Source of the DNA: Labyrinthula sp. Ha
Taxonomy: Eukaryota > Sar > Bigyra > Labyrinthulida > Labyrinthulaceae
Length of the DNA: 64,000 bases
Direction: 5' to 3'
NCBI GenBank assembly: GCA_015227615.1
Contig: JAALGZ010000049.1
Coordinates: 124,001 to 188,000, forward strand
Every line of letters starts with the position of its first letter. Position 1 is the stretch's first letter. Under the pieces are notes generated by a model that saw nothing but the letters and a program-made list of their open reading frames with translations, was not told the DNA's origin and did not search any database. A program made the position numbers and the translations under genes. Positions 24,214 to 37,715 of the stretch are shown piece by piece.

Positions 24214-26462
24214 CAGTGATGCTCAAATCTGGCCGCCCACTAATATCCGATCTAATACCATACGTCCCCACACGAAATTATTAGTGGCAGGTTGCGTGGA
24301 GAAATTGCTGCCAGGAGCCCACAATTTTTTTTAAAAATCTGCTCTGTGTCCAATCCGGCCATAGCAAAACCGTTAAAATAAGAGTTAAAAACCACAATTT
24401 CGGATAAAAATGAGCATTGATTTGACAAAGTCTGCCGCAGAAATGATTCATGAAGACGATTCGGGACGAAATCCAGTCCTTTTCGTAGTAATTAAACAGA
24501 ATTTTGACGTTGAAAAAGCCGAATTAACAAAAAAAGCACATGTATTCAAGCTTCCTTGCAAACATTGCCCAAGAAAGATGATTTGGTGGAGTAAAAAAGG
24601 TTATACTGGTCTCATGGAACACCTGAAAACGCACGTAGACGAAGAAACTATTGAGAAACTAAAAGAAGAACATGCAAGAAAGCGTAGAAGAAAAAGCAAA
24701 GACATTTTGGAGTTTATGAACTTTGAAAAATCTGATGTTTACAATGAATCTATCGCTAACTTTTTGCTAACGAAGAATATGCCCTTGAGCTTTTTGGGAT
24801 CTGAAGAGTTTAAGAATATAAGGAATGCGGATGACCTCGTTAGTGAGAACACGATGAGAATTTATTTGAAGCGCATGGAACACCTTTTTATAGAAAAGAT
24901 CAAACAAGAAGTGGATTTAGAACTATTTTGTTTAGTCATCGATGGTTGGGCTCACCAAGGTTACAGTTTTAATGGTGTTTATTTATGCTTTGACAAGATG
25001 AAGAATATGACGTTTCGCCTTCTTGGAGTGCTTCCTTTAGAAAAATAAACCCAAAGAGCTAGTGACATTGTTCCTTTCCTGAAGAATTTGATGAACAAGT
25101 TTGGTCTTGATGAATCACTGCTGGTTGCAATTGTTGCTGATAATACAAACACGAACAAAAAAGTTTGCAGAGATCTTGAAACGCAGTTTGTGGGCTGTCT
25201 TAACCATCGTTTGGCTCTAGGTGTTAAGGCATTTATCAAATCTGAAAAACTGTTAGACGAAGCTTTAGACAAAGTGCAGTTGCTTTTTCGCAAGATCAAG
25301 AAGTCAAAGAAATTAACAGCAGCTCTTAGAAAACATAGGGATAAAGATGTTATTCTTCCAAATGTGACGCGTTGGAGTGGAAAATTTCTCATGATGAAAA
25401 GGTATCTTGACATTTGGATGTTCTGTGCGCAGCTAGAAGATGATGAAGTTCAAGATCTTATTTTGGGAGAGCGTTTAACAAGAACTCTGAGAAAACATGT
25501 CGACTTTCTTGCTACCTGCGACCGCTACACAGTTGCTCTTCAAAATTCAAAGTTTAACCTTGGTCAAGGAAAGAAAGTTGTTGAAAATCTCTTAAGAGAT
25601 GTCAATAATAATGATTGTTTGTTGAAGTATTTAGAAGATGATGCAGATATTTTGGCTGAGTTTGGTGCTTTTGAAACTGGGGTGTTTAAAGTTTGTTGGG
25701 AGGAAGAAGATAAACTTGATGCAGCAGAAGCAGAAGATTTGTCCAGGTTAGAACCAGATCCTTCTGAAGAAGAAGCAAAGACTCCACCTGGTGAACCTGT
25801 GATTGCAGAACTCGTTGCTCAGACTAGAGAAAGTACAAGTAAGAGTAGTTACGCAGATGTGAGCTTCATCCCAGCGACTTCGTGCAGTGTAGAAAGATTG
25901 TTTTTAGCCAGTGCAAGCAGATTTTTAATGATAAGAGAAGTAGGATGATCCCTGCAACTTTAAACAGACTTGCTTTTTTGAAGATGAATCAAGATGAGTT
26001 GATGGATCGCAACATTAATTTTGCTATTAAAAAGCGAATTCCAAGTTTCGATAATAAGGAAGAAGACAAACAGATGGAGGAACAGAATGAAGAAGAAGAA
26101 AAAGAAGATTTGACACTTGAGGGAGTTTGTTCTTGCGACAAGAATGTGCATAGCGATGACGAAGCTTAAGATTTAAGGGTTATTAATAAGTTTTATCTTT
26201 TCTTCATATAAATACATATTACTGTGTAAAAGTTAAGCCCAAACTTAACCTTCTGACCTATATAACTTTTGAGAATAAGGTGCAGTTTGTGCAGAAAAAA
26301 GTAACGATATTTTGGGCAATTTGCGAGTGGTCTCGGGGACGTTCGGGGTTTCCCACTCTTGCCGAGCTCCCACCATTTTTTTCTCAAATTTTAGCGTCCC
26401 CACAAAAATCCACAGAAAAGTGGAAACCCACAAAACCCACACAAAAAATTTGGGCTTCACTG
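24214..26462 (+). mobile_element. hAT DNA transposon
   Basis: 2249 bp. The left end CAGTGATGCTCAAAT and the inverted right end CAGTGAAGCCCAAAT match at 13 of 15 positions. Both begin CAGTG as hAT ends do, and an 8-bp duplication flanks the element. Inside is one transposase gene, interrupted by a nonsense codon and a frameshift. The mismatched terminal repeats and duplication suggest moderate age. Confidence 0.88.
24410..26169 (+). pseudogene. hAT transposase with BED finger, two lesions
   Basis: Cut-and-paste transposase of about 585 codons. A BED-type zinc finger (CKHC...HLKTH, about residues 46-71) is followed by RNase H-like fold pieces with the acidic VIDGW near residue 185 and ADNTNTN near 242, then the C-terminal dimerisation block (PATSCSVERLF, then SQCKQIF, PATLNRLAFLKMN). 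A TAA codon at 25046-25048 interrupts the frame, which continues unchanged after it. A second lesion lies in a T run near 25905, where the frame shifts inside the dimerisation block between ERLF and SQCKQIF. A glutamate-rich tail ends the protein. The gene is thus recently inactivated. The intact terminal repeats could still be used by a transposase supplied in trans. Confidence 0.88.
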
Positions 26463-26941: not shown

Positions 26942-27703
26942 CCATATATAGTTGTAAAGCAAAGGATATGGTTCCTATATCCCTCGAGTAGGGTACACGA
27001 ACAGCCGGTTCGCTCTTGCAGAACAAAGGAATTTTTTAGTGCCTGGGACCCAAATTACCAGACCCTGAAATAGATTATTTTTTTCTGTAGTGAGAACTCT
27101 GAGAAGTTAGATAACAAAATAGACTTTGATTACAAGTTAGTGTAAACACTAGCTATACCAAGAGATGGCGACAAGGCTTTGGCTCCTATCAGGGGCAAAT
27201 ATTTTCATGTCAATATAAAAATTTGATTTAATAAAGAACAGAGTTGAAGGATAATAAGTGTCATAAGATGCTTCTTGGATAAGACAGAAATGAATGTGCT
27301 AAAAGAGAAATTAACAAGTATTTTTATTACGGATGATGATATGTACATGGAAGCCAAAACTTGTATTATTGAAAAAAACAAGAGTGAGAAGTTAAATATT
27401 ATGATCTTAACAGCAGCAGTTAAACTACTAATTATCCCTAACAATTCAAGAGGAATGTCAGTCTTTTCTCCCACTTTTTTTAATCCAATGTTTTGAAATA
27501 AAGCGGCAGTTTCAATTGTGCTCTATTATTTAGTGTACCTTTAAGATGAGCTCCATACATTTCTCTGAAACTGCACAAAGCTTTCATGAAGACCTATACT
27601 GAGAAATGGAAATAAACCAATTAACTAGAATAATCCAAAACTTGTGACAACTGCACTGCCTCTTTACTTTCAACCTGGTTTTTGCCCTTATTCCTGTGCA
27701 TCA
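26942..27703. other. Flank of the LTR element, no intact gene
   Basis: About 760 bp. A short plus-strand frame at 27275-27496 has protein-like composition (KEKLTSIFITDDDMYMEAK) but no family I recognise and no clear gene structure. Confidence 0.45.
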
Positions 27704-27843
27704 TGATGGTTTAGCCGTTATTGTTATGGGGTTTATAAGTAATGCATAGTTATATTTAGTCGTTAACACCTAACTCGACACATTTGCAAACGGCACTTCT
27801 CAATTGACAAAGTATTTATAGAAGCATTCGTGGGATCTGATCA
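27704..27843 (+). repeat. Left LTR
   Basis: 140 bp, begins TGATGG and ends TGATCA, so it carries the usual TG...CA ends. Preceded by ATCA. Confidence 0.93.
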
Positions 27844-27849
27844 TTGTTC

Positions 27850-29300
27850 GAACAAGAGAAAGACTCTACATTGACATTTCACAAGATACCAAAGTTTAAG
27901 ATATCGAAGAGTGGAAAGCATTTAGTGGATCAAGCTACTGAAGAAACCTTATTATATTTTCGTCCGTGTAAAGTTTCTAAAACTTTAGGCGAGCCTTCTT
28001 ACTCAAAGGACACTAAATCTTATCTTAGTTTTCGAGAAGAGCTTTTAGCTGTTACTCCCAAAGCAGCTAAATCAAATCTTGAAACTACACATTCAAACTC
28101 GCCTAGGTCTTCAAAGGGCTTTACAGATACACCTCTCAGAGCAAGCAACAGAGAATATAATATTAATTGGTCTTTGAGCAGGGAGAAACCGAGGAGAAAA
28201 AATAGTCTTATCAAAAAAACTTACATTTTCATCAGAACACGTCATTAAGAAATCGAAGATTCTAAATACAGAAATGCAAGAATACGAAGAAGAAAACGAG
28301 TCCATAGGAACAAACTTAGAAAACAGAGAAAGCAAAACGAATATTCCAACACCAACAAATAACCCACCAAACAATACCTTCTTTATTCAAAGCGCACCAA
28401 ATCCTCCCTTTTTGAAAACTCTTTCGGCCGAGGACGTCATAAGTTTCACCCACTCTTACGCGCACCAATCCGGCAACATCTCCATCCAACACTATATAGG
28501 CGGTAAAGTGATAAGGGAACTTAGCGACGTTTACGACGCAAAGACAGACAAGGCAATAAAGGAAGTCTTGGAGCAGATAGTTGCTGAATACGACGATGAG
28601 AAGCGCGAAATGAATATAAGAATCTTTAGATCTCAACTAAAATGGCCTGAAGATAAGCCATATAGGCTTCAGGTTAAACACTTTATCAACAGTATCAAGA
28701 GGTTAGCCACGTTGAAGGAAATGAAAGACAAAATAGTTGCAAAACAGGTTCTCAAGATCGCTATTTCTAAGCTGCCGTCGAGGTTCGAAATCGATACTGA
28801 TGAATACAATCAACTTCACAAGCTAGTTCGATCAGCTCAGAAGAAACTTTTAGACAAAGATCAGTATGAACACTTACAAAAAATGGAAGAAAATAAGAAG
28901 CCTGGACTTGAGTTGTTGGAACAGCTGTTAAAATTGAAGCAGTGGGCGATGAACGGGCAGGAAGATGATGTCAAAATTGAGGAAGTGATGAAAGTACAGC
29001 AACCGGCAACCCAGCACACGGCTTATCCATCGCTGCCAGCTACTTACGCGCAACCGTCAAACACCTATCAACCACCTCAACAACATTTTACGCCTCCACC
29101 AGCTATTCAGTATAGTCAAACACCTCAGACCTACCATCCACATATTTCAAATAACAACATGAATATAAATGCTAATCAACAATATCTCCTTCAAGTACAA
29201 ACACACCAGAACTTTCAGCAAACAACTCCGGGGTTTCATAAAATCCACAATATGTTTTAGCGGCGCCAACTTACGATAGAAGCTGCAGGATCTGTTCGAA
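27850..29300 (+). other. Gag region of the LTR element
   Basis: Charged, helix-rich coding sequence followed by a proline/glutamine-rich stretch, as in Ty3 Gag capsid regions and their tails. A Cys-containing segment near 29.3 kb (RICSKPE...DCPINE) could be the remnant of a zinc knuckle. Part of the fossil element. Confidence 0.65.
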
Positions 29301-29599
29301 ACCTGACCATTATCAGCGCGATTGCCCCATCAACGAAATGAGGAAAGCAAATGGACTACCTCCTATATTCTTGAGAGCTGCAAATAATAGGAACCAGCTA
29401 CCATCCAGTACTCCCCCTAGAAACACAAAAAATGTTCCGGTGAATAACAATTCTCTTCCCAACTTTAACTATCACCTCCAACAGTCATCGCAAGGAGCCA
29501 TGCAAAGATACCAATCTCCACAACGCAATCCAAACAGAGCTCAAAATGTAATTGCCCGCAGGTTCGAAGGAATAAATGGACAAGTTCTCAACCAGGAAA

Positions 29600-29880
29600 A
29601 GGCACAAATATTCATAGTTGTGCCTATGGGGTCTTGGCAGTCTGTTAAAGGTTGTCTTGACAGTGGTGCTACTGCCACAGTTGGAGGTTTCCAACAAAAT
29701 TCTCAGCTTTGTCATACTGTTTATCCGATGAGAAAGGAAAGATACGTTGTATTGCCAAACAACCAGAAGCTTAGGGTCACGCACACGGGTCTCATTCGCC
29801 TCAAGGTTAAATACAGCAACGGAAAAGAGAATGAATGGCCGAGGATGAAAATTGCATTGGTCGACTCACCTCAATAGCAA
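29600..29880 (+). other. Aspartic protease region of the LTR element
   Basis: GCLDSGATATVGG carries the retropepsin D-S-G active-site signature, with a downstream hydrophobic strand pattern. Position between gag and reverse transcriptase is as expected for Ty3. Confidence 0.75.
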
Positions 29881-30599
29881 TGGATTCTTATCGGTTTTGA
29901 AGATTTGTACAACCTTAGAGCAACTCCTGGCCAAGTACTTTATGCCTCCGCTACTCATCCTAGTAACCCTTTCAATAACGACAACCAGAATATGCACATA
30001 AATCAAGTTTACCAGTCATTAACACCCCAACAAGACAGTCAGAACGCACATCCTAACTCCCCTAATGAACCAAATATCCTCCAACACTTGAACAACCAAC
30101 AACAAAACTGAAAACTTTGCGCTTCAAATCCTATTTGTGATGAAAATGTCGACTCAAACAGTTCTCAATTCATCTTGGATTTACTTGTCTTTAAGGTAGA
30201 ATACAGCGAAAAGGATTTGCAGCGGGGTAACTATGCGTACGAGAAGCCTGTCGTTTTCAAGACAGATGAGGAGCCGGACGAATACGAGGCAGAGAAAGTT
30301 GGATACGGTGAGAACTGCGAGCGCAATGACGCTGACGAAGAGCAGCGCATCAAGGAGAAAATAAGGAGGAAGATGGATGGGTTATCAGAGGACTTTGAAG
30401 CTAAAGACATCACCGCACTCGTTGACCTTATTCTGGACAAATACAAAGTTTTTCGTGACAAGGAATCCCCTGCTAGAATGTCAAAGTTGAGACTCATATT
30501 CTGCCACGTAATACCAGACGCAGCCTTTCCTGTTGATTCATCTCGAAATTATGGCCCTTCAAATGCTTGGATTTTTAAGAAGCAAGCTGGAGAGTATGG

Positions 30600-31150
30600 A
30601 AAAACGAAACTTAATTCGTAAAAGTTGCAACCCCAAACATGGATGCCAGACGTTTTTGGTGCCAAAGAGGGGGTCAGAAAAATATAGAATGGTTACTAAC
30701 ATGAAGCCATTGAACAAAGTTACAATAAAAACCCCACTTACGATGCCGAACTTGGAGCAACAGGTTTTCGTGCCAATGGGCTCGTCTTATTTCAGAGCTT
30801 TCGGTATTTTAAGTGGATTTGATTACATGCCAGTTCACGAAGAGTCTATGCATTATTTTACGATTATCACTCCGACTGGAGCATATGAAATGGTTGGTAG
30901 CCCCATGGGGTGGATAAACACCCCGATGCTTTTTCAAGAACATATGCAGACAGAAGTGTTAGGTCCTAAGTTTGTGAAGGCAAGAGAAGGAGCGATATGT
31001 TGGATAGATGAAATTGTCATTTACTCTTCGAGTTTTGAAAACTATTTGCAGAATTTGGCTGAATTTCTTGAACGATTTATAATGTTGAACCTGAGATAAA
31101 ATATAGACAAGTGCTTCCCGTTTCAGAAAAAGGTTGAATGGTGCGGAAGA
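30600..31150 (+). other. Reverse transcriptase region of the LTR element
   Basis: Recognisable from FLVPKRGSEKYRMVTNMKPL, the SGFDYMPVHEES strand and GSPMGWINTPMLFQ, all at the usual spacing in Ty3-type reverse transcriptase. Part of the fossil element. Confidence 0.85.
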
Positions 31151-31449
31151 GAGATTAGTCAAGAGGGCTGGAATTTTAGTTCAAAATATTTCAATAAGAT
31201 TTTGGATGTCAAGAAACCATATTATCGGCATCAACTTGCCCAGGTTTTACATTTAGCAAATTGGTTGTCGCCTGCAGTAGCAAACCTCACTAAATACAGA
31301 GATTATTTCGCGAACTTGGTGGATTTGAGAAAGCCGAAAGCTCAACTGAAAAAGGAGAATGAGCCGGTCGAATGGACCGAGGAGTCTATAATCAACTGGA
31401 ACAAATTTTTAAATATGTTGAATGAGGCTTCAAGAAGACGATTAAATAG

Positions 31450-31900
31450 TTACGACCCTTCCAAATCTTTGTGTTTATTCGCCGATGCCTCAGATCTATA
31501 TTGGGGTCTAATAGTCACACACTGCGAGAACTGCAACCCTGGACTTATTGGAGACAACACGTTGATCAAAAACCAGATTCATTTCCCTATATTCTTTTTC
31601 AGTGGCAAATTTCAAAAAGGGCAATTGAATTGGCACATATCGTCGAAGAAGCTATATCCTATTTGGTTCTCATTTAAAAGGATCCCCTGGCTTCTCTTTG
31701 GTCAAGAATCAACAATCACCGTCTTCACAGATCACAAAAACCTCCAGTATGTGTTGTCGCCAGAAGAAAGTCCAAAGCAAAGTCAAGTTGGAAGGATGTC
31801 AAGATGGAGCTACCAGTTTCAGAAGATCGACATGGTTTTGAGGCACATCCCCGGAGAGGAAAACGTGGCGGCTGATATTTTGTCGCATTGGGGAAACAGA
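31450..31900 (+). other. RNase H region of the LTR element
   Basis: LCLFADASDLYWG, then IFFFSGKF, the LNWHISSKKLYPI helix, and TVFTDHKNLQYV followed by HIPGEENVAADILSH: the standard Ty3 RNase H order. Confidence 0.88.
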
Positions 31901-32299
31901 TATGCTGAGGAAGTGGTAAAAATGGACGATTCTCAAACTGATGTGCTTATGTTTCTTAGGGATGTTTATGTTTTGAATGTTGAAGTTGATTTGGAAGATC
32001 TTAACGAAGCGACAAAAAATATTTTATGAAAATAGAATATCTTTTCTCTCTACATGGTATAAAAATAAGTTCAAGAAGCCTTCAGATCAAGAGCTGCTGG
32101 ATTTACAACGAAACCATTCAAAGAAAGAAGTTGAAGAGATAATATTTCAAGATTCAAAAGTATGGGTCCCGTGGGATATGAATTTCATCTGCAGGCTGAT
32201 TATATCTAACCATATCTCCCAGAACCACGTTTCGACAAAACAAGAAGAATAATTATTGAAGAAATCTTTCAGCTTTGAGATTCTCAAGGGTCATAGTTT

Positions 32300-33170
32300 G
32301 AAAACCCTTATTCAGAACTTTAGAAAGAAATGTCTCCATTGCTCTAGCAACCAGCATCAACTGATTCGCAGACCATTACATTTAACCCTGATCTCTAATA
32401 CCCCACGGGAAATTATTCATGCCGAATTTCTGTCAATAAACAGTGACTGCAAGATAGTTGTAATGGTTGATAATGCCACCCGGAAGGCCTTTATAAAAGT
32501 TGTTGAAAAAGAAGATGCCTCTAACATAACTTTAGCCCTTATCGAATTTCTTGGAAACTTTCAACTCAAGAACAATTTTACGCTAGTTACAGATAACGCC
32601 TCTTATTTTGCCGGGAAATTTTTACAAACACTGTCCGAATTATATCATTTTAAAAGGTACTTCAGTATCAAGTTTAACCCCTGGACAAATGGTGTAGTCG
32701 AAGTGACCAACGCAAAAATCGTTAGGATTATTAGAACCCTTTGCTCGCAGTTTCGCATCAACACCTCGGAGGTTCATAAACTAGTTGGAACTATAATGGA
32801 TTCTTTAAATAACCACCCTTCAAGGACCAAAGCGGGATACACTCCAAACCAACTATTTATGAACGCACCAGTTACCGAATCTTTAACATTGTTAGAAAAT
32901 ATATCTGGTTTAGCTGCTACATTTTCAATCAATCTTACGACTAGGGAGAAGAAATCTATTGAGTCAAACTTTAAGGAAGGAAGAAGACTTATGAATAAAA
33001 GATTAAAGCTGGCCTACGATACAACGTTGGAGCTCAGGTTGAGAAAAAACAAACGATACAATGATAAATTAAAGGGCCCCGTTATTCAGTATAACGTTGG
33101 CGACTGGATTGTACTATCTAAATCAGGAACAAAAGCAGCACAAATAAAACACTTACCCTTATTCGTCGGA
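32300..33170 (+). other. Integrase region of the LTR element
   Basis: A zinc-binding remnant (CLHC) precedes the catalytic core with HAEFLSI, TDNASYFAGKF and NPWTNGVVEVTNAK, the D,D-35-E type pattern. A C-terminal beta-barrel-like part with YNVGDWIVLSKSG follows. Confidence 0.85.
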
Positions 33171-33224
33171 CCTTACTAAATAATCAAAACCATCAGCTCT
33201 AATGTTTCTCAAATTGAGGATTTA

Positions 33225-34949
33225 TTGGGGAAAAGACAAATTGTGCACACATCTAGGCTGTGGCCTTATGAAGATAGCACTTTTGAGCCAACTCAAGAAA
33301 TTATTAATCTCTTTCTTTCTAATCAAACCCCTCTTGAAGTTGAATACTTTTCGAAGCTTGATGTTACTAAAGAAAATGAAGCAATTGTTCAAACGAAATG
33401 GCTTGGGTATGAGAACCTAACATGGGAGCCTTGGCTGACCATGTGTGAGGATTTACCAAGTTTAACAAAGGATTTCTTAGCTAACTATCAAGTCACTCAG
33501 AGAAAAATGGCAAAAAGGTCATGGAACAATACCAACTCTGAGGCTGTTGACAAAGTTAATCATATCGGTGTGTCTGGACAAGCGGTGCCTACAACTGCAC
33601 CGGGATGGTTGCCTAAAGAAAAGGAAATATTACGACGTGCGGTCATGAAATATGGTTTTGGAAACCATAAGATAATTAGACAGCTAAATTTGTTGCCTGG
33701 CAAGAACCCTCAACAGATGCATAACCAACTTCAGAAGTTAGTATTTAGACAAGCGGTTACTGAATATCATGGACTTTATTTAGATGTTTTCAAAGTTGGA
33801 AGAAGGAATAGAGATACTTTTAAAGCCTTTTACATTCGTGAGCATAATATCCGACCTCGAGAATTAACACTACGTCGCTACTTAAATCAATGGAGATTTG
33901 GATTAGCACCGATGGAACGTCATAAGATTATAATAACATTTTTTAGGAGACTGGATAATATTGAAAATTACCTGGACTACTTCGCATTTAATGATTACTG
34001 CAATCCTGGAGATATTATACCAGTGCTGAATTCGCCTCAAGTGGAAAGGAAAATTTTGGAGAATGGATTGGTCTCATTGATTAATGAAAGAAAAATAAAA
34101 TCGAAGTTTTTTAAGTTTACGCAGAAGTATGAATACGAAGTTGTTGAAGCTCTTAAAGACTTTTATTCAAACAACCTTTTATTATGGTCTATGTCCGCTG
34201 ATTATGTTATCCTGGAATTGGATGGTCAACAATTTAGACTTTCAGGATGTGGTTCAAATCATTTTATTTTATCTACAGACTCTGATTTATTTGAACCTAT
34301 CAACTCAATTGACCTTACTATACCTCCTCCTCAAAGCATTCAAATTAAACTTGACTTATCTGAACCATCTGCAATAAATTTACTCTTGAATTCTTTTGGA
34401 ACTTTTGATCTCTTACATATCGATCCTCCTTGGACTTACTTATCTGATGCCCCTACTCGCGGAGCAAGTATTTCTTATCCAACTCTGTCTGATGAAGATA
34501 TATTGTCAATACACATTGGGAAATTGGTTAAACATGGAGTAGTTCTCCTATGGACTGTGAACAACAAACTTGATTTATCGAAGAAATGGCTACAGCAACA
34601 GGGATTTAAGTATCGAAATCTCGTCACTTGGGTCAAGACAACGAAGCATGATAGACTTGCAGTTGGAAACGGCCATATACTAAGACATGCTACAGAAAAA
34701 TGTATTTTAGCGACTAAGGGAAATCATCCTGACTTACTGCTTGGAAGAGCCAATGATGTTATTTTATCGAGACGTTTAACACAGAGCCAGAAGCCGGTAG
34801 AAATCTATGAATTAGCTGAGACCTTATTGCCTGGGAAACAATATTTGGATCTCTTCTCACGAACATGTAATCTACGCTACCACTGGTTCTCAGTTGGCCT
34901 TGACCTTATTACTAACTACAGGAAGTTTATCTTTGAAAAAGAGGAATGA
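33225..34949 (+). CDS. Chromodomain-SANT-MT-A70 methyltransferase frame of the LTR element
   Basis: 574 codons, open throughout. Residues about 38-88 form a chromodomain (KWLGYENLTWEPW), the histone-tail reader used by chromoviruses for targeting. Residues about 127-175 (GWLPKEKEILRRAVMKYG) resemble a SANT/Myb DNA-binding helix set. Residues about 390-560 are an MT-A70 domain: DPPW at 400-403, LLWTVNN, a WVKT strand and GHILRHATEKCILATKGN, laid out as in METTL3 and ciliate MTA1 rather than in METTL14, whose motif is not DPPW. The family transfers a methyl group from S-adenosylmethionine to adenine N6 in RNA or DNA. The last codons overlap the purine tract and the stop uses the first LTR bases, so the frame belongs to the element. 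Whether it is translated with the integrase or alone cannot be seen. Confidence 0.88.
   Translation: MGKRQIVHTSRLWPYEDSTFEPTQEIINLFLSNQTPLEVEYFSKLDVTKENEAIVQTKWLGYENLTWEPWLTMCEDLPSLTKDFLANYQVTQRKMAKRSWNNTNSEAVDKVNHIGVSGQAVPTTAPGWLPKEKEILRRAVMKYGFGNHKIIRQLNLLPGKNPQQMHNQLQKLVFRQAVTEYHGLYLDVFKVGRRNRDTFKAFYIREHNIRPRELTLRRYLNQWRFGLAPMERHKIIITFFRRLDNIENYLDYFAFNDYCNPGDIIPVLNSPQVERKILENGLVSLINERKIKSKFFKFTQKYEYEVVEALKDFYSNNLLLWSMSADYVILELDGQQFRLSGCGSNHFILSTDSDLFEPINSIDLTIPPPQSIQIKLDLSEPSAINLLLNSFGTFDLLHIDPPWTYLSDAPTRGASISYPTLSDEDILSIHIGKLVKHGVVLLWTVNNKLDLSKKWLQQQGFKYRNLVTWVKTTKHDRLAVGNGHILRHATEKCILATKGNHPDLLLGRANDVILSRRLTQSQKPVEIYELAETLLPGKQYLDLFSRTCNLRYHWFSVGLDLITNYRKFIFEKEE
34935..34946 (+). other. 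Polypurine tract of the LTR element
   Basis: GAAAAAGAGGAA directly abuts the right LTR, the expected place for the plus-strand primer. It also encodes the last residues of the methyltransferase frame. Confidence 0.8.
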
Positions 34950-35086
34950 TGGTTTAGCCGTTATTGTTATGGGGTTTATAAGTAATGCATAGTTATATTT
35001 AGTCGTTAACACCTAACTCGACACATTTGCAAACGACACTTCTCAATTGACAAAGTATTTATAGAAGCATTCGTGGGATCTGATCA
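34947..35086 (+). repeat. Right LTR
   Basis: 140 bp, nearly identical to the left LTR, begins TGATGG and ends TGATCA. Followed by ATCA, the second copy of the target duplication. Confidence 0.93.
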
Positions 35087-36275
35087 ATCAGCATAAATTC
35101 TTACATATAGTCTTTCGTGAATTCAATATCAATTGCACTCTTCTCACTCAAAACAGTAATTAACCTGAATAGATGCCTAGTTAAGAAAGATTCCCTTTTG
35201 CAATGTATTTATATATTTAAATAATCATCTTCATTGTTTTTTAGTACTATTAAAAGTATGCCAGTAATATAGCAGAGTAGTGAAAGTACTATTAAACCCA
35301 TAGAGGAAATTCAATCTATATTTAATGTTTTGTTCAACAAAGCATTAAGAAGGGAACAAGCAAAGAATAAAAAACAAAAGTTTCAAACTTCAAGTGGTAA
35401 AGGAATAAGAGGCATACCTTCTAGAAAAGGTTTTTAATACTAGAAAAGTTCAAGGAGAATTATATTCATTTAAACCATAAACATTGCAAATCTGTCACCA
35501 ACACTGTAACTGTTAGATAGTGTTCTTTATTCTAATACTTATTAATCCAACCCAAAGATGTTAATTTTACTATAGGAGTGCAGTATGAAACTGCTAGCAG
35601 TGCTAAAAAGCTAAACAAAAATATAATCAGATGAACCAATTGTACTAAACTGTAGGTTACTTAGAACTACAAAGAGCCAAGGAACGCCATAAGATACACA
35701 CAAACAAGGGATCAAATCTTGAATATATTTGCTGCACTAATAAAAGATCATCCAGAAGAGGAATGTTTAGTCGAAGAGTGAGTAGAAACACGAACTAGCT
35801 TACTTAGATTCTCTCAACTTCTTGTCAGCTGGTGAATATACCAAGAACTAAGACTGCGCTCAAGAGAAAAAACATTTAATCCACTTACTTTATGTAGAGA
35901 AGCCACCATTCTGTGTTTTCATTATTAATAATATAAATAGACTTCGACAAGTAGGTGGCACAATGCTAAGGCAAAGTCAATGCATTTTGTTTGAGTAATC
36001 ACTTAGTAGTTTATGAATTGAGTATATAACCCTTAAATTTAGGACAAAAAAAAGAAACCCTCTTTTACTAATAGTACTTAGTGGAACAGTTTTTCCCCTC
36101 AAAATATGTAACTTTCTCATGAATAAGTCTTGAAGCAACACTTTACTCTAATTTAGAAAGGTCTCCATACACTCAAGAGAAAACAATAAAATCTAATAAT
36201 CAAATACCAATGAGCCTACAAGGAAAGTAATGCTAGTCGTAACCAATTGATGTAACTAATCTAAGCTATTTTCAT
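35087..36275. other. Right flank of the LTR element, no intact gene
   Basis: From about 35.28 to 35.45 kb a plus-strand frame (KPIEEIQSIFNVLFNKALRR) looks protein-like, then stops. It may be the remnant of a gene that cannot be named. Nothing else supported. Confidence 0.4.
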
Positions 36276-37715
36276 TCAGCTTAACAAATCGTTCAGTCCA
36301 AACTCACGGTAAACCTGATCAATTTCATCCTCGGTTGCTAAGAGGTCCCATCTTATTGCTTTAGAAAAAGTCATCTCAACTTCACTCAATTCCTCTACAT
36401 ACAAACCAGAAACCTCTGCCCAGTCTCCAACATCAATACGTTTGTCTTCAGTAATCTTAACTGCTAAGAACATGCATATTGCAAATATTCTATGTTGGTT
36501 AAACACACTAAGAAAAAAATTTTCCTCTATCACCTTTATTCTGTTGATGTATATTACGGACATTACAAGACAACGTATTCCAACACCCCTTCCTCCATAC
36601 TTAGAGTTTGATTTTTTCTCTTCAAGGTTATCCAAAACATGAACCAAACAAAACAAATACTCATTTAATGGTATTTTTGGAATACTGATCCCTTCATAGA
36701 TATCCAAATATGCACTATTTTGAAGAATTCCCAAATCCTCTTCCTGAATTGTCACTTTGGCCAGAATGTCTACAATTGTATTTACAACATCATCACGAAC
36801 TTTACTGAGTTCAATACTATCTTCATAAGTTTTCCACATAGTTCGCTTAAGAAAGAAATCTACTCTTTCTTCATTCACTGTTGGAACAGTGAATCTTCCA
36901 AATGCGGCACCTTTGCCGTTGCTTATTTTCTTTTGAATAATTTTGCGTGGAGGCTTATTCACAAACCTAAGTGAGGTAATAAGCGACAAAACCTGACTCA
37001 TTTCACTCCTATCATCAACCACAACTTTCCGGCTTAGTGATCCTTGATATTGGAGTAGTTTTCGCTTTGACTGGGACCTAAAGAGTCTGGACTGTGGGTG
37101 CGTGTGACCTGAAGAACTACTGCTGTACTCATTTGAATTTCTCTTATCCACTTTGGGATGGAAACCTGGGACATATGGGATTGGAATTACGCTATATTCA
37201 ATTGATCTGGCAGCTGAAGGCAACTCCTTGGCTTCTATGGTCTCAGATTTTGGTTCTTTCGTCTTGTTACCTGTGTAACAAGTTGCACACACTATCTTTC
37301 TTTTTCTAGTTAAGAGTACCAAGGATCCGACTGTTAAAACTCCAGCACCTGCGGCAATAGCTATTGTGGTAGTACCATCCTCCTCGTCTTCAGAATCTGA
37401 GTCTTCATCATCATCATCATCATCGTCGTCCTCGTCATCATCATCAGATCTTCTGCCGCCCCGCTGGAGAATGCGTTCAATAGGAATTATACCCTGTCTC
37501 TCTTCCTCTTCCAACAGATATAAACAATCCTTTATCACCTGAAGCTCTATCCCATGCTTTGCGGAGAACCCAACCTCAGTCCCCTCGTATTGGTCAAACG
37601 CCTTGACCACCTCCTCACAAAACCTAGCCTCCGTCAGCCCTTTTCTTAAACTAAAGCCCTTCACTTCACACAGATAACTTAATCCAAGCAGTGCACTTAT
37701 CATTGCCTTTTTCAT
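36276..37715 (-). CDS. Membrane-anchored PHO80-type cyclin, paralogue 2
   Basis: Intronless, 479 residues, same plan as the gene at 17.9 kb: signal peptide (SALLGLSYLCEVKG), conserved luminal Cys33 and Cys63, an Asp/Glu run at about 89-113, transmembrane helix at about 115-136 and RKRK followed by CATC. The cyclin domain (about 290-470) has IYINR and FNQHRIFAICMFLAVK. The luminal and linker parts differ strongly from the other copies while the TM-proximal and cyclin parts are conserved. A 137-bp tract in the cyclin box is almost identical to paralogue 3, best explained by gene conversion. The opposite ends of the protein therefore have different histories. Partner CDK unknown. Confidence 0.85.
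   Translation of the reverse strand: MKKAMISALLGLSYLCEVKGFSLRKGLTEARFCEEVVKAFDQYEGTEVGFSAKHGIELQVIKDCLYLLEEEERQGIIPIERILQRGGRRSDDDDEDDDDDDDDEDSDSEDEEDGTTTIAIAAGAGVLTVGSLVLLTRKRKIVCATCYTGNKTKEPKSETIEAKELPSAARSIEYSVIPIPYVPGFHPKVDKRNSNEYSSSSSGHTHPQSRLFRSQSKRKLLQYQGSLSRKVVVDDRSEMSQVLSLITSLRFVNKPPRKIIQKKISNGKGAAFGRFTVPTVNEERVDFFLKRTMWKTYEDSIELSKVRDDVVNTIVDILAKVTIQEEDLGILQNSAYLDIYEGISIPKIPLNEYLFCLVHVLDNLEEKKSNSKYGGRGVGIRCLVMSVIYINRIKVIEENFFLSVFNQHRIFAICMFLAVKITEDKRIDVGDWAEVSGLYVEELSEVEMTFSKAIRWDLLATEDEIDQVYREFGLNDLLS
36451..36587 (-). repeat. Gene-conversion tract shared with paralogue 3
   Basis: 137 bp that differ from 39788-39924 at only two positions, silent sites included, whereas sequence on both sides is clearly diverged. 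It encodes the central cyclin-box helices. Confidence 0.8.

Follow-up and report, generated by a model that had tools for sequence, protein, structure and literature searches.

Retrotransposons that carry a DNA methyltransferase are already known. In the accessible part of PMC5890265, cytosine DNA methyltransferases (DNMTs) are reported from dinoflagellate and charophyte retrotransposons; KnitGypsy-Dnmt3 carries the methyltransferase in pol, with a ratio of nonsynonymous to synonymous substitution rates (Ka/Ks) below 0.2, and SymbioDIRS-Dnmt3 and a long interspersed nuclear element (LINE)-type element of Symbiodinium are further examples. DIRS elements with a Dam-like N6-adenine methylase are mentioned there as well, and the accessible part of PMC12730594 describes fungal DNA transposons with TET/JBP dioxygenases. 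Here we describe a Ty3-type long terminal repeat (LTR) retrotransposon at 27704..35086 on the forward strand of a 64,000-nt stretch of the Labyrinthula sp. Ha genome (contig JAALGZ010000049.1, positions 124,001 to 188,000; hereafter the window). Its 3'-terminal part combines an MT-A70 methyltransferase domain with a DNA-binding domain of the type of p1, a subunit of the MTA1/AMT1-MTA9-p1-p2 complex.

The window element resembles the DNMT elements in being a retrotransposon with a predicted DNA methyltransferase. The enzymes of the latter, however, act on cytosine and are called structurally unrelated to the adenine ones in the part of PMC5890265 at hand, whereas here an N6-adenine MT-A70 domain stands with a p1-type domain. 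The capture appears to be the same kind of event, with another enzyme family, the domain of a second subunit, and the backbone of an LTR chromovirus. The DIRS elements also place an adenine methyltransferase in a retroelement, but the enzyme is of the bacterial Dam type, while here a eukaryotic MT-A70 belongs to an LTR element that has an integrase. The fungal TET/JBP elements are likewise mobile elements with a DNA-modification enzyme, though the enzyme is a dioxygenase and the elements are DNA transposons. With the chromoviruses (Ty3/Gypsy) the element shares the LTRs and the order of reverse transcriptase (RT), RNase H, integrase, and chromodomain; it differs from them by the C-terminal p1-type and MT-A70 domains, between which one branch has a protease-like domain. 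The likeness to the MTA1/AMT1-MTA9-p1-p2 complex lies in the MT-A70 domain, which scores best against MTA1/AMT1, and in the p1-type domain. The difference is that the element joins the domains of two subunits in one mobile polyprotein behind an integrase and a chromodomain.

No report of MT-A70 with a p1-type domain in LTR elements was found among the papers listed by searches of the open full-text literature, a body that leaves subscription papers and bioRxiv mostly outside. If the elements use the module as proposed below, they would be, within the reach of these searches, the earliest described mobile version of the eukaryotic pathway of N6-methyladenine (6mA) in DNA.

The C-terminal frame of the window element

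The MT-A70 domain (34404..34901, forward strand) occupies residues 394-559 of a 574-aa frame (33225-34949, forward strand) and matches positions 1-171 of the 172 of the Pfam model with an E-value of 4.5e-29. The preliminary description, made from the letters of the window, had pointed to DPPW, WVKT, and a later motif; all are in the translation, with DPPW intact. It had noted MT-A70 in the frame and had overlooked a p1-type Myb/homeobox-like DNA-binding domain at 33591..33812 on the same strand. Searched alone against the PDB, this domain matched p1 of the Tetrahymena MTA1 complex with an E-value of 3.8e-9, the next match being a Myb protein at 0.23. The whole frame searched against solved structures matched p1 as well (3.3e-8), and its Myb match in Pfam, at residues 128-172, was sub-threshold. 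For L023, an intact family of the same genome (L numbers denote loci read in the 50.8-Mb genome, P numbers database proteins, and C numbers contigs), the p1 match reached 4.9e-16, and the runner-up, p2 of the MTA1 complex, was not significant (0.022). We read the window frame as a fusion of a p1-type DNA-binding domain to a catalytic domain that, judged by its matches, is MTA1-like.

Against solved structures, the MT-A70 domain of the window scored 131 bits with Tetrahymena MTA1/AMT1 (4.4e-37), 81 bits with METTL3, and 39 bits with METTL14. All 36 MT-A70 domains that were scored (35 element rows, some of which represent one family from two sources, and a second frame beside L031, called L031_second) had the highest score against an AMT1. 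When the host AMT1 candidate was taken out of the references, 31 domains scored best against AMT1 and five against METTL3; these five (L019, L021, L022, L023, and P0001) had METTL3 above Tetrahymena AMT1 only slightly. The best host candidate for AMT1 is L015 on C91, with 327 codons and a match of 3.7e-73 to Tetrahymena MTA1; no RT was found within the 10 kb read around it. As for L031_second (L031:8820-9899, reverse strand), it has 360 codons, lies close to an element, and has MTA1 as the nearest match (3.5e-25); no RT was seen in the little adjoining sequence read, and the frame could be a host gene or an element remnant.

That the window holds an LTR element with a target duplication, as had been proposed, was confirmed. 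The 5' LTR (27704..27843) and the 3' LTR (34947..35086) are direct repeats on the forward strand, 140 bp each, with TG...CA termini and one mismatch between them, and the target site duplication (TSD) ATCA stands at 27700..27703 on the left and at 35087-35090 on the right. The Ty3-type pol was also correctly described: upstream on the same strand are the reverse transcriptase (30533..31099; RVT_1, 2.2e-11), the RNase H (31202..32029; RT_RNaseH, 1.2e-17), and the integrase core (32256..33179), for which the rve match was weak (2.6e-5, under the curated cut-off). The C-terminal frame begins with a chromodomain-like region (33225..33524, forward strand), which matches the equivalent region of L025-L027 and L030-L033; no Pfam match to a chromodomain was found in this frame at an E-value of 0.1. 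The frame belongs to the element and is not a trapped host gene, because the 3' LTR opens with the stop codon of the frame (34947-34949) and the last codons of the frame make up a purine tract just upstream of the LTR.

Copies, relatives, and descent of the module

A profile search located at least 150 MT-A70 places in the genome (the best 150 of 354 candidates were scored), and 101 of the 150 scored matches were preceded on their own strand, at a distance of 0.2-2 kb, by a p1 domain. As controls, the p1 positions were displaced six times by 20-50 kb, which left from 0 to 2 such pairs; on the opposite strand no p1 was seen within 2 kb. The domain is thus not private to the window copy, and many element families of the genome carry such a module at their ends. 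In the reverse direction, the Tetrahymena p1 domain searched against the genome found element frames from an E-value of 7e-17 onwards (best 150 of 318 candidates); ahead of the elements, its top two matches were the short frames L034 (C100, 226 codons, 4e-22) and L035 (C1, 372 codons, 1e-21), which are two candidate host p1 genes. At least 40 integrase matches had p1 or MT-A70 downstream (among the best 150 of 549 candidates and the best-150 lists of p1 and MT-A70), and among the matches listed some over the rve cut-off fell in several of the long single frames described below, such as those on C62, C111, and C113.

The loci that were read are not a random sample: 60 of the 150 scored MT-A70 matches were listed, with high scores and long frames favoured, and of the 25 stretches obtained, 24 hold elements and one the host AMT1 candidate. 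With the window this makes 25 element loci, in which MT-A70 is present by selection and only the accompanying domains are a result. The p1 domain was found in 24 of them (the exception is L017) with a profile built from six element p1 domains, that of the window included. RT was also present in 24, the exception being L025, which begins at a contig end within RNase H. Pairs of direct repeats surrounded the module in 23 loci; the exceptions were L025 (contig end) and L026 (tandem array), and in L029 and L030 the repeat runs to the end of the stretch read. In each of the 20 loci for which the distance was measured (L025, L026, L027, and L030 were left out), 7-156 bp separated the end of the MT-A70 frame from the 3' LTR. 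The identity between LTRs was up to 100%, as in L023 (443 bp) and L033 (295 bp), and near-identical LTRs show recent activity of the elements. A scan of 20 loci for a TSD, with ends slid by up to four bases, gave a match of 4-6 bases in 17, a result too loose to count except for the window.

Several copies have one uninterrupted frame from stop to stop: L012 (2,278 codons), L019 and L021 (2,333 each), L022 (2,358), L023 (2,363), L028 (2,305), L029 (2,660), L030 (2,107), L031 (2,108), and L032 (2,180). In three intact copies (L012, L023, and L028) RVT_1, RNase H, and MT-A70 were all over the Pfam cut-offs in a single protein; rve was under its cut-off in the three, and Chromo was over it in L023 and L028 and under it in L012. 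PF00385 (Chromo) was also listed for P0001, P0021, P0032, and other proteins. The two LTRs and the order of RT, RNase H, and integrase are those of the Ty3/Gypsy type, and the assignment to the chromoviruses, as judged from the sequences, rests on the chromodomain C-terminal to the integrase. The earlier placement of the methyltransferase inside a chromovirus is therefore borne out by two of the three intact relatives and not by Pfam in the window frame itself.

A protease-like domain lies between p1 and MT-A70 in L023 (L023:7123-7560, with LDSGA and a sub-threshold gag-asp_proteas match, E 0.0014, tested in this locus). The same placement was seen in L009-L014, L016-L022, L024, and L028, while in the window and P0021 types the domain stands before RT. 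L026 (C132:833572-843472) is a tandem array of the window family, in which 1.25 kb are repeated every 7,242 bp.

To look beyond the genome, we searched proteins with the RT-integrase region of L030 and obtained, from 5,107 candidates, 62 relatives at 1e-10. The closest ten (P0021-P0030) were EukProt gene models, apparently from one assembly, nine of them with PF05063; P0021 was 100% identical to the query across the region searched. The environmental contig of 6.4 kb that encodes P0032 showed 36% identity over 52% of the same region; RVT_1, rve, Chromo, and MT-A70 were over their cut-offs, and Myb was just under (24.2 against 24.4). The module therefore exists in a second source, as P0032 encodes the same architecture. 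An environmental chromovirus, P0033, has a p1-type domain and a weak MT-A70 match in which NPDW replaces DPPW; this may be a copy without catalytic activity that was retained in the element. The other 50 of the 62 relatives had neither p1 nor MT-A70 at an E-value of 1e-3, their truncation at contig ends not having been examined. With the MT-A70 end of L023 as the query, 402 candidate proteins yielded a single relative, a EukProt polyprotein, and a further profile search (A1) gave 19 proteins: the window's own, three from EukProt, and 15 from metagenomes with 24-35% identity, which we read as bacterial-type. These two protein searches returned no further polyprotein and no other named eukaryote with the module, and no relative was found in viral contigs scanned with P0032 and P0021 or in genome contigs scanned with P0032.

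The trees of RT and of MT-A70 yielded the same families: the window with L026 or L027, P0021-P0030 with L030-L032, and L029 with L009-L028. The distances in the two trees agreed, with r of 0.94 for 26 copies and 0.92 for 16 family representatives (p 1e-4, 9,999 permutations), from which it follows that the module was mostly inherited together with RT. The references of the RT tree were the relatives from the L030 search. With the MT-A70 domains of the elements constrained to a single clade, the P value of the approximately unbiased test (p-AU) was 0.0395, or 0.0495 without P0032. In these two tests L031_second stood outside the element group although it clusters with L033; its removal gave 0.132, so that a single clade is not rejected. 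When the RTs that go with MT-A70 were constrained in the same way, p was 0.125; once P0031 was included, a branch with support 56/82 separated them and P0031 from the other RTs. On these sequences, the trees would fit a single capture as well as repeated ones, and as the source either AMT1 or a different branch of MT-A70.

Possible roles of the module

The preliminary description had suggested that the element may mark its own RNA or its own DNA. The domain scores best against the DNA enzyme MTA1/AMT1, and the fused p1-type domain points to DNA rather than RNA. The reading that we favour, and hold to be somewhat probable, is that 6mA is placed by the element on its own DNA, a self-marking as active. 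A diverse chromodomain Ty3 lineage would have acquired the p1 DNA-binding domain and the AMT1/MTA1-type catalytic domain behind its integrase and chromodomain and would have retained this module through long element evolution. Cleavage of the polyprotein would release a chromodomain/p1/AMT1 protein, which might accompany the integration complex or go back to the nucleus. There it would methylate adenines of the element DNA, probably those in ApT, either ahead of insertion or once it has taken place. New copies would thus bear a mark of transcriptionally permissive chromatin and resist silencing, and a host partner similar to MTA9 or AMT6-7 may complete the enzyme. More tentative is the fuller version, in which a whole LTR lineage would possess a self-contained 6mA reader-writer beside its integrase and would pre-mark complementary DNA or new insertions as active, an anti-silencing device.

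Such a role has a background in the accessible part of PMC12695648, where AMT1-type 6mA at ApT is linked to transcription and to active chromatin with trimethylated histone H3 lysine 4 (H3K4me3), and where p1/p2 co-occur with AMT1. According to the accessible part of PMC9852454, p1 and MTA9 may aid DNA binding, and residues 152-183 of Tetrahymena p1 are a C-terminal helix-turn-helix that binds the N-terminal helix of MTA1. If the module is active, nature would have made in one chain a version of a complex for which four subunits are described. The usual story would also be inverted, the element writing a mark of active genes rather than only being silenced. The genome offers a direct test ground for the role of 6mA in the control of transposable elements.

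Several points weigh against self-marking of DNA. The preference for MTA1 in the scores is weak proof on its own, because the bacterial-type P0010 likewise prefers MTA1 (65 bits) over METTL3 (52 bits); the stronger sign of kinship with the AMT1/MTA1 complex would be the p1-type domain in the same frame. The comparison with METTL3, METTL14, and MTA1 by phylogeny, which the preliminary description had proposed, made the element families clear and did not separate the deep placements: the p-AU for elements and AMT1 as one clade was 0.029 (0.061 without L031_second), and for elements with METTL3/14 without AMT1 it was higher, 0.059 (0.162). The ratio of nonsynonymous to synonymous rates (dN/dS) of MT-A70 was low in three of the four measurable close pairs (0.07, 0.12, and 0.20), which speaks for a retained module, but 0.98 in the fourth (L024/L028, with dS of 0.02). 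That of RT was lower in the same pairs (0.05, 0.03, 0.09, and 0.43), and 9 of 13 pairs were saturated at synonymous sites; MT-A70 is under constraint, though less than RT. P0025, with an RT-integrase region 67% identical, has no MT-A70 in its gene model, which stops inside the p1 domain. Non-consensus motifs may mean that catalytic activity was lost in some families. Finally, the accessible text of PMC12695648 reports no enrichment of 6mA on transposable elements in the species studied, and that of PMC9852454 states that both p1 and p2 are required for the activity of the MTA1 complex.

The main rival is tethering, in which the chromodomain, p1, and the MT-A70 fold would steer integration to 6mA-rich H3K4me3 chromatin by binding either DNA or the MTA1 complex of the host, with a secondary part for catalysis. 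The module stands downstream of the integrase in the families read, P1 is enriched on 6mA-rich chromatin in Rhizopus according to the accessible part of a review (PMC13297926), and the L009-L018 family has DPAW within otherwise kept frames. Among 37 element rows (some families appear in two rows, one per source, and the motifs of P0032 and P0033 were read by eye), the catalytic motif was DPPW in 20, DPAW in 9, DPPY in 5, and DPPG, DFPY, and NPDW in one each. DPPW or DPPY is thus kept in 25 of the 37, the KP motif is found in 33 (by eye in P0032), and several columns of the catalytic domain are invariant across 11 aligned sequences, all of which would be superfluous for a pure tether. The 25 rows would favour catalysis and the altered motifs a non-catalytic role in the families that have them. 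As a replacement for self-marking we find tethering doubtful; the two could both hold.

That the enzyme would write N6-methyladenosine on element RNA, with an effect on packaging, translation, or decay, seems improbable. The MT-A70 fold is common to METTL3, METTL3 stood slightly above Tetrahymena AMT1 for five of the 36 domains, and the tree is compatible with a grouping of the elements with METTL3/14. Yet the host AMT1 candidate was still the top match for those five, and a p1-type DNA-binding domain, known from a DNA enzyme, accompanies MT-A70 in 24 of the 25 loci. An RNA enzyme of the METTL3 type was rejected as the first choice, since the structure and reference scores favour AMT1. We give still less credence to dominant interference, by which the element protein would compete with the host MTA1 complex, mis-assemble it, or methylate host genes: a candidate host AMT1 and two candidate p1 genes are present and the catalytic motif is changed in some families, but the conservation of the motif in most rows would be left unexplained. 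One copy alone could not have excluded a private capture, but this, or a host gene caught between LTRs, can be set aside with near certainty and was rejected given the many copies with p1 upstream, the MT-A70 frames that end at the 3' LTR or shortly before it, the single frames with RT and MT-A70, and the environmental relative P0032.

Other features of the window

The window copy is degraded, with the protease-like region in frame 1, RT and RNase H in frame 2, and the integrase and the C-terminal part in frame 0. A probable gag frame (28274..29260, forward strand) was assigned by its position alone, with no Pfam family above the cut-off. It is followed by a probable aspartic protease (29338..29877, forward strand), for which a DSGA-type motif was seen by eye and the Pol_BBD match was sub-threshold (E 0.04). 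Just 3' of the 5' LTR, at 27845-27856, there is a palindrome, TTGTTCGAACAA, whose first bases are not TGG; the usual tRNA primer site begins with TGG.

Near the element, two frames at 24410-25948, for which no Pfam family was found, look by eye like what we take to be a broken hAT-type transposase. On the other side, a Cyclin gene (Cyclin, 2e-10) adjoins the element at 36276-37715 on the reverse strand.

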